Assembly (NCBI RefSeq): GCF_900215295.1
Contig: NZ_OCMF01000001.1
Location: 1,116,001-1,180,000, forward strand
From: Salinimicrobium sediminis
Lineage (GTDB): Bacteria; Bacteroidota; Bacteroidia; Flavobacteriales; Flavobacteriaceae
Direction of reading: 5' to 3'
DNA: 64,000 bases
The position numbers and the translations under genes are program-made. Within the stretch, counting starts at the first letter, position 1; every line of letters begins with the position of its first letter. The notes under the pieces are model-generated. The model was not told the origin of the DNA and ran no database searches. It saw only the letters and a program-made list of their open reading frames with translations. This document shows positions 58,994 to 64,000 of this stretch, piece after piece.

Positions 58994-59101
58994 CAGAAGC
59001 CCTATAAACTGTAGTTGTTCTGGCGAAAAAATAAGAGGAATTGATTCTTCGATAAATACAAACAACATAATATTTCTCCAAAATTGAGCTTTAAAAATAT
59101 A

Positions 59102-62100
59102 ATGACCTATAAATTGAATAAGAAGGTCGCTGAAAAACATCTTGATGAGCTAATTGATACTTTTTATCAACATTTTGCTACAGGAGGAAGAACAATTAAA
59201 TATGTTTTTGACTTTTCTGAAGTTGAATGGATGTCGAATGAAGAACTACTTACTTTTACTGGATTGTTTAAGTCTTTAATTGATTCGGATATTGACTTCA
59301 ATGTACAATTTTTAAAAGATGGTTCTAGTGAAACAATTAACAAGAGAAAAGCCAAACAAATTATACAATTATGGGATGTTTGGAAAATTTATTCAATTGT
59401 TCCTCACAAAGATTACAATCTATACTTTGATATTGACGGCAATTTTATTGAACGTCTGAGAGCAGAATATAATATTCAGACAGTCACACAAGAAATTTAT
59501 GAGAGCTATGGTATAACACCATTTGTCACCCTAGAAAAAATCGAATCTTACGATGATCAAAGGATCGTGGAAAAGCTTCACGAAATTTACAGATTGGAAG
59601 CGGCTACAAGTGAAATTTTACACGAGAATAACTGTTACTTACCATTCCATAATGAAACTCTAACTTCCATCGTATCAAAAGAGTTATTTGAAAATTTCTT
59701 AGATCATTATGACCAAAGCCTTTTTAGCCCTAAAAGTAAAGTAGCTTTCCTGAGCCTCGTATTAAAAAGAAAGCTAAATACAGAAAGATTGGGGAAGGCT
59801 AAGGTGCAGGAAATCCTTAAAAGAAACTTCAAAGAAGAATCATTTCCTGAATTAAGAGATTTCTATGTTGAAATGGATAACCCGGACGTGTTTCTAAACC
59901 GTTCTTTACTTCAACTCTCCTTTGTTGATTTCGGGGAAGGAATTCCTAAAACCTTGAAATCAGCCTACTATAGGAATACCGGCACTGGGTATAGTAAAGA
60001 ACATACATCTCAAAATGAAGATACTCGAATTCTTGAATATGCCTTTAAACATGATTCTTCCCAACATGAATTAAAAGATAAGTATTCTAAAGAATTTGCT
60101 GTTCCACGGGGGTTATTTGATCTGCTTTCAGTCGTGAAAAGATTTGAGGGGGTTATCATTGCTCGAAGTCACTATGGAAAAATTGCCTTCGACTTCTCGT
60201 GTGGTAAATCGATGGAGGAAGCTGTGCGGTATTTTGGGGATCAGTCAAAGATTTTTCCAGGAACATTATTTACTATTTATATACCAGAAAGGGAAATTCA
60301 ATTTGAAATTGACTCTTCTTCCATTAAACCTTACGACTCACTTGCCGAATATTCTTTTAAGAAAAATGAAGTAAAACATGTAAGTCTTTTTGAAATACAA
60401 ACTGAACAAAAAAACCAGAAAACGGATAAGGGAGAATTTTACAATATACTCTTCGACTCCTTTCTTAAGAAAATTCAAAATAATTCTGAAACATTAATTT
60501 ATTTGGACTTTACTGGTTGGGAAATAGATGAAAGAGTTACTAAGAAAATTATCTTTTTTCTATGCACTGATTATAGAATAAACCTGAATAACAATGTTAT
60601 TGTAGTAAATCCACCTTCAAAAAGATTTTTAGCTTCAATAAGGGATCAACTATTAGATCTAGAAGAAGTCCACCGAAGGTTTAAAATACATCCAACGCCT
60701 TTCGTATTTTTTGATAACAATGAATTAGAAATTTTTTGGCTGGGTATATTTTCTGAACAAGACATCGAAAAATTAAATAAACTTCTTTTTGAAGAACACG
60801 ATTTAAGGAAATCTGACTTTGAAAATCCAGAAGCAATTATTGGTCATATTAACCATTATGATAATTATGGAAATTTAGTTTCTATTATTAACTCTACTCA
60901 ATTAAAATTACATTATACAGGTGAAGCATCGAAAATAGAAGATAGTGAAATTGAAAAGATAATTGCTCCTTGTATAAAATCTTCAAAGGACACAGTTTAT
61001 CTTTGTAATGGCAACTATTACCAATATCAATATTTAGAATTATTTGACGCCTTGTCGGATGAAGACAAACGCAAATTTCTCAATGAAATTTTACTACGAA
61101 AAATTCAAAGTTCTATTGATGATTGGAACCAATATATACTTGTAGGAATTACCTCTAGCAGTCATAAGATAGTTGACTACTTTGAATCCCGGTTGGGAGG
61201 AGATCGTAAAAATTATGTTCGTTTAAATAATTACTTTTCTTTCGAGGAGGAAGCAGAATTTAAACAAGGTATTTATAAAGGCTCAAAAGTAATTCTTCTT
61301 TGCGATGTTGTTTCTACAGGTTACATGGTTGAACGTTTTATTTCAAGACTGAATATATTAGAAGCATCAATTGAAAAAATAGGAGTCCTTGTTGATGCAA
61401 TCGATACTGATTTTAACCCTGATAAATACAATTATTCTGAAATTAAAAATAAAATTATTTCGGTTTATAAAAAGCCCCTTAAAAAATATACCCGAAATAA
61501 TATTTCTGCAAAGTTGAAACATGGAGAACTGAAAGTAATAAGAATTAATCCTTTTACCAATACACCAATAACTCAGGGAATTGATGAGAGTAATTATAAT
61601 AAATCGGTTCTTCTCAATAATGAGGATTTTGCAAAATTAATATCGGTAGATCAAATACAGGTAGGTTATTTTAATTTTAATAGTCTTGTGCATCCGTACT
61701 TTTTTAACATGCACTCTATTTTATCCGACCCAAGAAAATCTCAAAATTTAATTACCCAACTCTTCGACGCATTACAGAAACAAACTTCTCTAGAAGAAAT
61801 TGGGGTGGTATTTTATCCGAAATCTTCAGGTATTCATAAGATTGATTTCAAATTGTTGCAGGACAAGTACTTCAAGAATCACAACACTCTTTTTTTTGAG
61901 TTGGAGAGATTTCTAACCAATGAAGGATGGCGTTTTCCACATCCTCCTCAATATTTAGTTCAAATTAGTAGAGAGAAAAGAACTATGATTCTTGATGACG
62001 GCTCTTGCTCAGGTGAATCTATATCCCAGATGATTGATGAAGTATCCTTTTTAAATGTTAAAAGCATAACTGTTTTGTCCCTTGTAGGCCGAATTAACAA

Positions 62101-63847
62101 CCATAAAAGAGAATTCTTTTCAAGAATAAAAAAAATAGACAGTGGAGGGAAGGAAATTCCTGTAAAAATATTCTTTGGGAGTAACTGGCACATCCCGACG
62201 TACCATCAGTCCAAGAGCCCAGTAATTGAAGAGAATAAATGGCTGGATCAATTAATTCAATTACCAAATATTCCACAAGGAATTAAGACTCTTGTAAAAA
62301 CTATCAAAAAGGAGATTACTCCTAAAGAAATTTCAGAAGGGAATAGTTCTTATTTATTAAAAACCAAAGAAGGATTTGCAATTCATGACGAACTCGCACT
62401 TGTGCGTAATGAATTTGGAAAGATTTCTGAATACAGATTTTACAAAGAATATTTCCAATTTTTCGATCAGTTTATTTCCTATCATGAATCCAAGAATTCA
62501 AAAGAGAGAGGACATTTTCCCTATAGAAAGATTGAGGCCGTATGTGCCGTTTTCTTACACGAACCATATTTATTTGATAAAGTCAAAGCGGTCATTCCGG
62601 ATGTGGTTGATAAAATAGAAAAATTTGTGGAATTATTTGTTATTGAAAATAAAATACCACAAGACTTGTTGTGTTATCAATGGAATAAAAAAGATATGAT
62701 TCATCTATTATTTATTATTTACAAAGATGAAACTTTACTTGACATATTAAATAATAACTTGAAAAAGCTATTAATTTTTTCCTCCGACAGTCAATCCACA
62801 GTTAACTATTTTCTTTATAAACTGCTGAAATATTTCCCTCTCGAAAAATCAGAAACAAGAATTAAAAGACTTGATAATCAATTTAAAGAAATCTTAGAAA
62901 ATGTAGAAACAGATAATGTAACTCTAAATAAACAAATAAAAAAGTTCTATAATTTTTTAAAGACTTTGCCCTCAGGTACGGATATAGAATCACTCTTACG
63001 GACGTTAAGAGAAAATTACAAAAAGGAAAAAGAACCAGACTTGCATGATGACAAAATTTCTTTTAATCATAATATCTCTTTGATTCTTGGTAAGATTAGA
63101 GAGGCAATGGACAAAATAGAATCTAAAGAAACGATCCCTTCATCTCTATCGGATGCAATAGTTAAAGGTTGGTTCCAGGTCTTTAATTTCATTTCCCCAA
63201 TATTAACTTTTTCCATTACGTATGAGGAGTACCTTGCTCCTTTCCCTTATTTCAAGTTGCTTAATACTACAGAAAGGGACTCTGATTCTTTAAGAACACT
63301 TGTGGGAGCTAATGAAACAATGATTTTTTCAATTGATCAATCGTTTAACGATATCAACAAATTAAAAAAGATTGAAAGGAATACTATACTAATTCAATCG
63401 AACTTTTCATTGAACACAGATTTTCACAGACTAATTGAGCATCGGTGGACGGATTGGTCCCGATTCTACCAAAAATTAGAAAAAGAGTTGAAGAGGTTAG
63501 AATTAAAAGTAAAGCTGGATAATCAATTAAATAAAAACCATTTAAAAATCCAAATACCAAAAATCTATTCTTATAAACTAATAATTGATGAATTAATAAA
63601 CAACCTTAAAAATCATTGTAAAAAAGAAAAAGGAGCAGAGGTATATTTATGTCTTCAGGATATAGGTTCAAACGGTATTCAGCTCCACATTATTAATCCA
63701 ATTGCAGACATTAGCCACTCCAACAGTAATGGAGAAGGCACCAAATGTCTCAACCTTCTTTCAACAGCCGGCCATTTTGGATTTGAATATCAAGCCCAGA
63801 TTAAGGAAGGAAACTATGATCAAATTTTGAAATTCCAAACATTATGA
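59102..63847 (+). CDS. Giant STAS/GHKL-ATPase/phosphoribosyltransferase-like protein
   Basis: The 1,581-residue cytosolic protein (a TTG at 59084 would add six residues) has no signal or membrane span. In order I see: a STAS-like segment (about 32-75, VFDFSEVEWMSNEELLTF); a GHKL ATPase with N-box E194-L-F-E-N198, D276-F-G-E-G280 and PRGLF (335-339), ending GTLFTIYIP (387-395); a second STAS-like segment near 465-540; a PRTase-like domain with VGITSSS (681-687) and LLCDVVSTG (732-740); a second one with ILDDGSCSGES (963-973); a long helical region; and a second, degenerate GHKL-type end with DELINNLKNH (1496-1505) and NGEGTKCLNLL (1543-1553). It is visibly A+T-richer than neighbouring genes, suggesting transfer. 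It overlaps the next gene by ATGA. A sensor/effector role in cellular conflict or stress is inference. Confidence 0.85.
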   Translation: MTYKLNKKVAEKHLDELIDTFYQHFATGGRTIKYVFDFSEVEWMSNEELLTFTGLFKSLIDSDIDFNVQFLKDGSSETINKRKAKQIIQLWDVWKIYSIVPHKDYNLYFDIDGNFIERLRAEYNIQTVTQEIYESYGITPFVTLEKIESYDDQRIVEKLHEIYRLEAATSEILHENNCYLPFHNETLTSIVSKELFENFLDHYDQSLFSPKSKVAFLSLVLKRKLNTERLGKAKVQEILKRNFKEESFPELRDFYVEMDNPDVFLNRSLLQLSFVDFGEGIPKTLKSAYYRNTGTGYSKEHTSQNEDTRILEYAFKHDSSQHELKDKYSKEFAVPRGLFDLLSVVKRFEGVIIARSHYGKIAFDFSCGKSMEEAVRYFGDQSKIFPGTLFTIYIPEREIQFEIDSSSIKPYDSLAEYSFKKNEVKHVSLFEIQTEQKNQKTDKGEFYNILFDSFLKKIQNNSETLIYLDFTGWEIDERVTKKIIFFLCTDYRINLNNNVIVVNPPSKRFLASIRDQLLDLEEVHRRFKIHPTPFVFFDNNELEIFWLGIFSEQDIEKLNKLLFEEHDLRKSDFENPEAIIGHINHYDNYGNLVSIINSTQLKLHYTGEASKIEDSEIEKIIAPCIKSSKDTVYLCNGNYYQYQYLELFDALSDEDKRKFLNEILLRKIQSSIDDWNQYILVGITSSSHKIVDYFESRLGGDRKNYVRLNNYFSFEEEAEFKQGIYKGSKVILLCDVVSTGYMVERFISRLNILEASIEKIGVLVDAIDTDFNPDKYNYSEIKNKIISVYKKPLKKYTRNNISAKLKHGELKVIRINPFTNTPITQGIDESNYNKSVLLNNEDFAKLISVDQIQVGYFNFNSLVHPYFFNMHSILSDPRKSQNLITQLFDALQKQTSLEEIGVVFYPKSSGIHKIDFKLLQDKYFKNHNTLFFELERFLTNEGWRFPHPPQYLVQISREKRTMILDDGSCSGESISQMIDEVSFLNVKSITVLSLVGRINNHKREFFSRIKKIDSGGKEIPVKIFFGSNWHIPTYHQSKSPVIEENKWLDQLIQLPNIPQGIKTLVKTIKKEITPKEISEGNSSYLLKTKEGFAIHDELALVRNEFGKISEYRFYKEYFQFFDQFISYHESKNSKERGHFPYRKIEAVCAVFLHEPYLFDKVKAVIPDVVDKIEKFVELFVIENKIPQDLLCYQWNKKDMIHLLFIIYKDETLLDILNNNLKKLLIFSSDSQSTVNYFLYKLLKYFPLEKSETRIKRLDNQFKEILENVETDNVTLNKQIKKFYNFLKTLPSGTDIESLLRTLRENYKKEKEPDLHDDKISFNHNISLILGKIREAMDKIESKETIPSSLSDAIVKGWFQVFNFISPILTFSITYEEYLAPFPYFKLLNTTERDSDSLRTLVGANETMIFSIDQSFNDINKLKKIERNTILIQSNFSLNTDFHRLIEHRWTDWSRFYQKLEKELKRLELKVKLDNQLNKNHLKIQIPKIYSYKLIIDELINNLKNHCKKEKGAEVYLCLQDIGSNGIQLHIINPIADISHSNSNGEGTKCLNLLSTAGHFGFEYQAQIKEGNYDQILKFQTL

Positions 63848-64000
63848 TTAAAACCAGAAATATAAATTTATTTGTGTTTGACACCAAAACAAACTTCGAG
63901 AAGTCACAAGAATTTTTGGGTACATCTTTTAAATCGATAAATCAAGTTGACAGTTTAGAGTCATTTAACGCACACTTAGAAAGATTAAATGATGAGGAGC
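63844..64000 (+). CDS. Partner gene of the giant protein, 3' end outside window
   Basis: An ATG overlapping the stop of the giant gene (ATGA) opens a frame that runs to the window end (52 codons). It begins MIKTRNINLFVFDTKTNFEK. The first hydrophobic strand ending in Asp, INLFVFD, would suit a receiver-like or other alpha/beta domain, but too little is visible to assign a family. The overlap indicates translational coupling, so this product probably works with the giant protein. Base composition is A+T-rich, like its neighbour. Confidence 0.75.
   Translation, partial: MIKTRNINLFVFDTKTNFEKSQEFLGTSFKSINQVDSLESFNAHLERLNDEE

Follow-up and report, generated by a model that had tools for sequence, protein, structure and literature searches.

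A 1,581-residue protein of Salinimicrobium sediminis, made of regulatory, ATP-binding-like and nucleotide-enzyme-like parts, is encoded directly in front of a small effector predicted to destroy ATP. In one relative this effector is exchanged for a type predicted to destroy NAD. The two genes therefore most likely form an anti-phage system of the abortive-infection kind, related to but distinct from Detocs (Rousset et al. 2023, Cell), and we put the probability of this reading at roughly 0.62. Protection against phage was not assayed and no experiment on the pair was found, so that the assignment rests on the effector and the genomic context.

The window, i.e. the whole stretch of DNA analysed, comprises 64,000 nucleotides (bases 1116001-1180000 of a 1.68-Mb contig of a 3.48-Mb genome). 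The giant open reading frame has no internal stop, and a TTG lies upstream of its ATG at 59084. The sequence-only reading had described one long frame with an ATPase N-box and D-x-G-x-G motif, two PRPP-loop-like motifs, two STAS-like segments and a second, C-terminal N-box. This observation is confirmed. The N-box begins at E194, D-x-G-x-G lies at 276-280, LLCDVVSTG at D735, ILDDGSCSGES at D965-G971 and the C-terminal N-box around N1501. The motifs are more than chance: in an alignment of 11 homologs E194, N198, H202, D276, G278, G280, T739, D965, G967 and G971 are invariant, and D735 and N1501 are each kept in 10 of 11. Of the two STAS-like segments only the first is supported. The A+T-rich composition, for which a comparison of G+C and codon use with the rest of the genome had been proposed, is real. 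G+C is 0.30-0.33 over the two genes against 0.39-0.45 on the left and 0.44-0.50 on the right. GC3 is 0.267 for the giant and 0.276 for the partner, against a mean of 0.450 (SD 0.060, minimum 0.307) for 49 other window ORFs of at least 150 aa. The coupled partner that had been mentioned lies almost wholly beyond the end of the window, which is why its effector domain had gone unseen. The kinase-like nature of the C-terminus and the likeness to Detocs had not been seen either.

Features of the giant gene and its partner (positions in the window; residues of the respective protein)
Position	Strand	Residues	Feature
59102..63847	+	1-1581	Giant gene, putative sensor/hub: STAS1 - GHKL (by motif) - possible STAS2 - PRTase1 - PRTase2 - helical region - histidine-kinase-like C-terminus
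59102..59476	+	1-125	STAS-like domain 1
59573..60301	+	about 158-400	N-terminal GHKL ATPase, by motif only
60389..60781	+	430-560	Possible second STAS-like segment, unproven
60899..61501	+	600-800	PRTase domain 1, PRPP loop LLCDVVSTG
61655..62221	+	852-1040	PRTase domain 2, PRPP loop ILDDGSCSGES
62384..63298	+	1095-1399	All-helical region (model), function unknown
63299..63844	+	about 1400-1581	Histidine-kinase-like C-terminus
63844..64000	+		Start of the partner gene, overlapping the giant by 4 bases (ATGA) and running on to 65136 outside the window: 430 aa, His-bearing pseudo-receiver (1-145) and PNP effector domain (147-424)

To collect relatives of the giant, several searches were carried out. 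A search with the single protein found a relative in 3 of 395 genomes of the phylum, the own one included. A pattern scan of a collection of 84,980 species gave 3 loci, all Bacteroidota, one of them already in hand; Limnovirga soli (Bacteroidota; G126) falls in the same class as the source genome. Profile searches gave 4 of 395 genomes in one class sample (two of them already known), 1 of 197 in the class of the remote homolog G014 (itself) and 6 of 201 in one family, of which five are intact and one (G923) is a remnant with stops that was left out. One locus that was recovered twice at the same contig position (G453 and L013) and Limnovirga were each counted once. In all, 11 distinct intact giants were obtained (1,572-1,867 aa as called), with pairwise identities of 15-48%. 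Seven weak matches (E 9e-5 to 9e-4) covering short or PRTase-sized stretches were dropped as probably ordinary PRTases, without being checked one by one. No relative was found in plasmid records (window protein and two homologs as queries), in phage records (window protein only) or in two pattern scans of viral contigs. The species-collection and viral scans depend on two short peptide patterns each, and all whole-genome samples were drawn within one phylum, so restriction to Bacteroidota is not shown. The gene pair is conserved in 11 of 11 intact homologs with a spacing of -26 to +9 bases (one of -122 as called, probably due to an over-long start).

The domains of the giant were then analyzed by profile and fold. 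A profile of the 11 N-termini found the STAS protein TM1442, an anti-sigma-factor antagonist, in the PDB at E 0.0031. Of the 6 chains listed up to E 10, 5 are STAS or MlaB type, the other four of these at E 1.2-2.3. The following segment has 16 invariant columns (E194, L195, N198, H202, N266, D276, G278, G280, L285, A314, F315, G337, L338, G350, G387 and T388), which correspond to the N-box, D-x-G-x-G and glycine motifs of GHKL ATPases. Neither Pfam nor the PDB-profile search recognised a GHKL domain here, and an hhalign comparison with a HATPase_c protein (P0007) matched at the N-box with E 0.0022 but a probability of only 13%. As this part was not modelled, its fold, which had been named beforehand as a point on which the domain assignment should stand or fall, was not examined, and beyond the motifs the GHKL assignment is left undecided. 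The second STAS-like segment is compatible with the alpha/beta order in the model, but comparison with STAS1 or DUF4325 gave nothing useful.

The tandem PRTase folds are supported by Pfam, PDB profiles and fold. For the first, Pfam PF00156 (Pribosyltran) scored E 4.8e-6, at 26.4 bits just over the cut-off of 26.3, and a PDB profile of OPRTase matched at E 4.9e-4; in homolog G014 the Pfam match reached 3.7e-8 over two stretches. For the second, an NCBIfam HGPRTase model matched at E 0.0036 (best stretch 957-1004), and PDB profiles gave OPRTase 3mjd at 5.9e-4 (profile positions 443-540) and the purine PRTase 1vdm at 0.0096 (565-602). The model of residues 400-1581 is good (mean pLDDT 81.7, pTM 0.69). 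Its best PDB folds by Foldseek are PRTases (HP1257, orotate PRTases) and the sensor kinase HK853, at E 4e-5 to 1e-3. These fold matches are modest, with target TM-scores of about 0.4-0.6, and as no aligned ranges were given, which part matches is inferred. Fold prediction without any PRTase had been set out in advance as a result that would overturn the domain reading, and this was not observed. The HK853 entries (E 4e-4 to 1e-3, target TM about 0.4) are assigned to the C-terminus, where a profile of the YycG kinase ATP domain also matched at E 0.013, while chance matches begin near 0.025. The C-terminus has no D-box and no candidate phospho-His conserved in the alignment of 11, so it looks like a pseudo-kinase.

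The partner protein carries a PNP domain (Pfam PNP_UDP_1, E 7.3e-11). Among PADLOC models the closest is PDC-M60C (E 1.1e-33 over residues 142-424 of 430), ahead of "Effector, PN-superfamily" at 2e-9. To learn what PDC-M60 stands for, we analyzed five plasmid relatives. The two complete operons scanned (1,165/162/412 and 1,159/152/397 aa; kinase, receiver and receiver-PNP) match PDC-M60A, B and C, and one further C gene matches C; of the other A genes one is interrupted by an IS, one is split and one is short. Kinase, "buffer" and response regulator is the composition described for Detocs (PMC11728103), so that PDC-M60C corresponds to DtcC, the Detocs effector. The top 50 PDB folds of the partner model are all MTAN or futalosine hydrolase and concern the PNP part. 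The MTAN catalytic residues E12, E174 and D197 correspond to E159, E373 and D399 of the partner, which are near-invariant. A search of 395 genomes with PDC-M60C gave 9 hits, including the own genome and G126; the other 7 are PNP genes that are not next to such a giant in the stretches read.

The N-terminus of the partner shows beta-alpha units in receiver order, (beta-alpha)5, with strand 3 ending at H59. This rests on a model of mean pLDDT 72.8 built from 9 sequences, and an hhalign comparison with 12 receivers found no hit, so the claim is one of topology and position, and homology to receivers is neither supported nor excluded. H59 is invariant in the nine partners of this type, whereas all five DtcC proteins examined have the acceptor Asp.

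Eight of the 11 partners end in PNP (tested with Pfam in four, assigned by alignment in the other four). One, G1004, ends in TIR (TIR_2, E 7.5e-7). On the tree of giants G1004 is sister to the PNP-bearing G965 (support 100/97) inside the PNP clade, and the receiver-like domains of the two partners are 44% identical over 158 aa (E 9e-34), indicating that the effector was swapped. The two most remote homologs, whose placement on the tree is unsure because of long branches, differ. The partner of G014 has a Pfam receiver (E 4.7e-9) before a part that looks HD-like by eye. That of G418 has receiver-like DDD and LDI motifs by eye before an APH-like domain (E 2.8e-6), with a caspase-like ORF, again by eye, two genes on. 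Pfam listed neither the HD domain, nor the G418 receiver, nor the caspase. Thus a giant and its coupling domain are paired with changing effectors, the usual look of an immune system.

The likeness to Detocs raised the question of membership. Both have a kinase-like large protein followed by an effector of receiver topology fused to PNP, and the best local match of the giant to DtcA is C-terminus to C-terminus, although weak (E 0.0024, probability 12%). However, the giant matched no PADLOC family even at E 10, while two control DtcA proteins scored E 0 and 1.9e-82. The acceptor Asp is replaced by His in 9 of 9 partners, and the PDC-M60C match begins only at residue 142. No small ORF that could be a separate DtcB receiver gene was seen between or directly beside the two genes, as judged from the ORF listing, the neighbours not having been scanned by HMM. 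There are two genes, not three, and the giant in addition carries STAS, GHKL motifs and two PRTases. As it fails three tested defining features (DtcA, DtcB and the acceptor Asp), the pair is not a Detocs member, and we regard it as a variant of two-component-like PNP/TIR immunity that most likely works like Detocs but differs from it in these features. A true phosphorelay, in which the giant is an unusual histidine kinase that phosphorylates the partner at H59 or another residue as DtcA does DtcC, would fit the HK853-like fold, the DtcA match, the Pfam receiver of the G014 partner and the receiver-like motifs seen by eye in the G418 partner. It is unlikely given that the C-terminus has no D-box and no conserved candidate phospho-His, that the acceptor Asp is replaced by His in 9 of 9 partners and that no DtcB-like gene was seen in the ORF listing, although the Pfam receiver of the G014 partner means that a phosphorelay may exist in part of the family.

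Other systems were compared one by one. PNP and TIR effectors also occur in abortive systems such as CBASS, pAgo and NLR-like systems, and PNP in CBASS, Detocs, pAgo, DRT8 and NLR-like systems is listed as degrading (d)ATP (PMC10952713); here the effector is coupled to a pseudo-receiver and a PRTase giant. For conflict systems with receiver domains outside histidine kinases and with PNP, TIR or caspase effectors, receivers were proposed as kinase-independent, nucleotide-responsive switches (PMC8195603), but in MoxR-vWA/iSTAND contexts, and the word "phosphoribosyl" does not occur in the main text of that paper. STAS-GHKL partner-switching modules share STAS1 next to a GHKL motif set, here fused in one giant with PRTases and a kinase-like tail; a phosphorylatable Ser and a sigma/anti-sigma partner were not looked for. 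Tiamat (TmtA) was matched weakly by one remote homolog (E 0.025) and not by the window protein. A 2026 machine-learning survey names PRTase in the legend of a figure of validated E. coli systems, and HATPase, REC and a purine phosphorylase domain among predictions (PMC13092281); a relationship to any of these was not assessed. In the library searched no paper on this architecture was found.

The gene pair, the giant's STAS1, invariant GHKL motifs, tandem PRTase folds and kinase-like C-terminus, the loss of the acceptor Asp in a receiver-like domain and the exchange of effectors follow from sequence or models, as does the variable slot described below. How the system works is inferred. In this view, the kinase-like C-terminus holds the pseudo-receiver in the resting cell and keeps the effector off. 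The tandem PRTases would bind PRPP or a nucleotide and, with the ATP-dependent GHKL/STAS part, register a phage-caused change in the nucleotide pool or a phage protein. The conformational change would pass to the C-terminus without a recognisable His-Asp relay and release or assemble the effector. The PNP would then split (d)ATP as DtcC does, and the cell would stop before phage matures; in the TIR version NAD would be destroyed instead.

PurR-like PRTase folds that sense PRPP or ppGpp are known, and the pur operon repressor (E 0.31, by profile) and a ppGpp-bound protein (E 4.4e-4, by fold) are among the matches of the giant. In PRTase1 the first acid of the PRPP loop is C, N or T in 11 of 11 homologs. 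In PRTase2 the first acid is D in 11 of 11 and the second is kept in 7 of 11, the window protein included, so this domain may be an enzyme rather than a sensor. The loop residues thus do not settle whether the acidic pair of a type I PRTase is retained, and PRPP-dependent transfer was not measured. It is conceivable that the PRTases make a nucleotide-like signal that turns the effector on, as PRTases are described to do in Ter systems (PMC7824862), or that they salvage the adenine released by a leaky PNP. We consider this unlikely, since PRTase1 lacks the first acid throughout and G418 lacks both. Moreover, both PRTase loops are kept in giants with TIR and other effectors and are not tied to adenine, which argues that they serve sensing or signalling rather than salvage of the PNP product. 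A further, only tentative possibility is a pseudo-two-component immune system in which two PRTase folds, turned from enzymes into a gauge of PRPP or purine nucleotides, let the cell sense phage takeover of nucleotide metabolism. The alarm would travel without an Asp acceptor, through a kinase-like tail to a receiver whose acceptor Asp has become an invariant His, and fire whichever metabolite-destroying effector, ATP-splitting PNP or NAD-splitting TIR, is plugged in. If true, the system adds a phosphorylation-independent branch to two-component-like immunity and gives PRTase folds a testable sensing role in immunity. It would also provide a natural test case for pseudo-receivers, whose activation in bacteria is called a mystery (PMC12632262), as the same His-bearing domain precedes PNP in one species and TIR in its closest sampled relative.

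To investigate the genomic context, we analyzed the region upstream of the gene to the right, tolC of an RND pump, which is kept in 9 of 11 other genomes of the genus sampled. Stretches of 11 kb holding tolC and 8.7-9.5 kb upstream were examined in 8 of the 9, and none contains the giant or the PNP gene (0 of 8); the rest of those genomes was not searched. That homologs might be core genes in all relatives had been specified as an outcome against a transferred accessory system, and this was not what was found. Long ORFs within about 5.2 kb upstream of tolC were scanned with PADLOC models in 6 of the 8 genomes (8 proteins; L076 and L077 were not scanned and shorter ORFs were left out). Four of the six carry GajA and GajB (Gabija; E 4.5e-280 and 9.7e-236), PDC-S06/PrrC-like (2.3e-303), a PtuA-like ATPase (9e-32, with two further genes between it and tolC) or a dGTPase-like protein (2.3e-57) with PDC-S19 (1.4e-158). 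The proteins of the other two species gave nothing at 1e-10 (one mad8 match at 5.9e-4, one none). Hence 6 of 8 slot proteins scored 1e-10 or better, against 0 of 10 other genes of the window. The control genes were picked across the window and look core-like, and the slot ORFs were picked by length, so the contrast shows a variable defence slot rather than an exact enrichment.

The proposal of the sequence-only reading, a GHKL, STAS and PRTase protein belonging to a transferred accessory system with defence or stress signalling as an inference, is in the main supported, and the defence part is strengthened by the low-G+C islet, the PNP and TIR partners and the slot. A stress or metabolic regulator of the STAS/GHKL partner-switching kind with a housekeeping nucleosidase would fit the PNP fold, which is closest to SAH/MTA nucleosidase and futalosine hydrolase, and STAS plus GHKL is typical of sigma-factor partner switching. 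It is very unlikely in view of the sparse, patchy occurrence, the G+C islet, the defence-model genes in the slot, the TIR swap and PDC-M60C as the best model. Around the other homologs, a large NTPase-like neighbour of G956 had no PADLOC match, whereas a capP-like gene (E 1.7e-18) and, by eye, SMC/Wadjet-, type I R-M (HsdS/HsdR)-, integrase-, RadC- and relaxase-like ORFs were observed.

The slot holding the pair is a variable site in the genus. In four of six species scanned, the stretch upstream of tolC carries Gabija, PDC-S06/PrrC-like, PtuA-like, dGTPase-like and PDC-S19 genes. Further genes were observed in the vicinity of other giants. Directly upstream of the Flavobacterium sp. 245 giant lies a capP-like gene (E 1.7e-18). 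Near the Limnovirga pair, a STAS-GHKL-like protein (HATPase_c E 2.6e-5) and a DUF4325 STAS-like protein are encoded. One long PADLOC DrmA model matches both (E 1e-13 and 0.0038, respectively), hinting at DrmA fusions with such an N-terminus. Behind the giant and partner of homolog G418, an unassigned ORF, a caspase-like ORF and another unassigned ORF were found in one run, where the caspase-like assignment was made by eye and was not listed by Pfam. In genome G923 lies a remnant of a giant's N-terminus, which contains two TAG stops and is located near a contig end.

Two further loci contain PNP genes. A 470-aa PNP protein with an HNH-like N-terminus (by eye) scores E 2.3e-43 with PDC-M60C and sits beside an AAA ATPase-like fragment. 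At the second locus, a PNP gene heads a run of ORFs, two of which are GTPase-like by eye, possibly representing another conflict operon.

Coordinates of the loci observed (L numbers denote the sequence stretches examined)
Stretch	Position	Strand	Feature
L080, L075, L079, L081	upstream of tolC in congeners; window equivalent left of 65429		variable slot
L009	1296-2039 and 2276-2575	+	STAS-GHKL-like and DUF4325 STAS-like proteins
L050	14302-18174		run of ORFs behind the G418 pair
L023	916-2328	-	PNP protein with HNH-like N-terminus
L027	244-6464		run of ORFs headed by a PNP gene
L056 (G923, contig C23)	11588-11965		remnant of a giant
L011	8732-9970		capP-like gene
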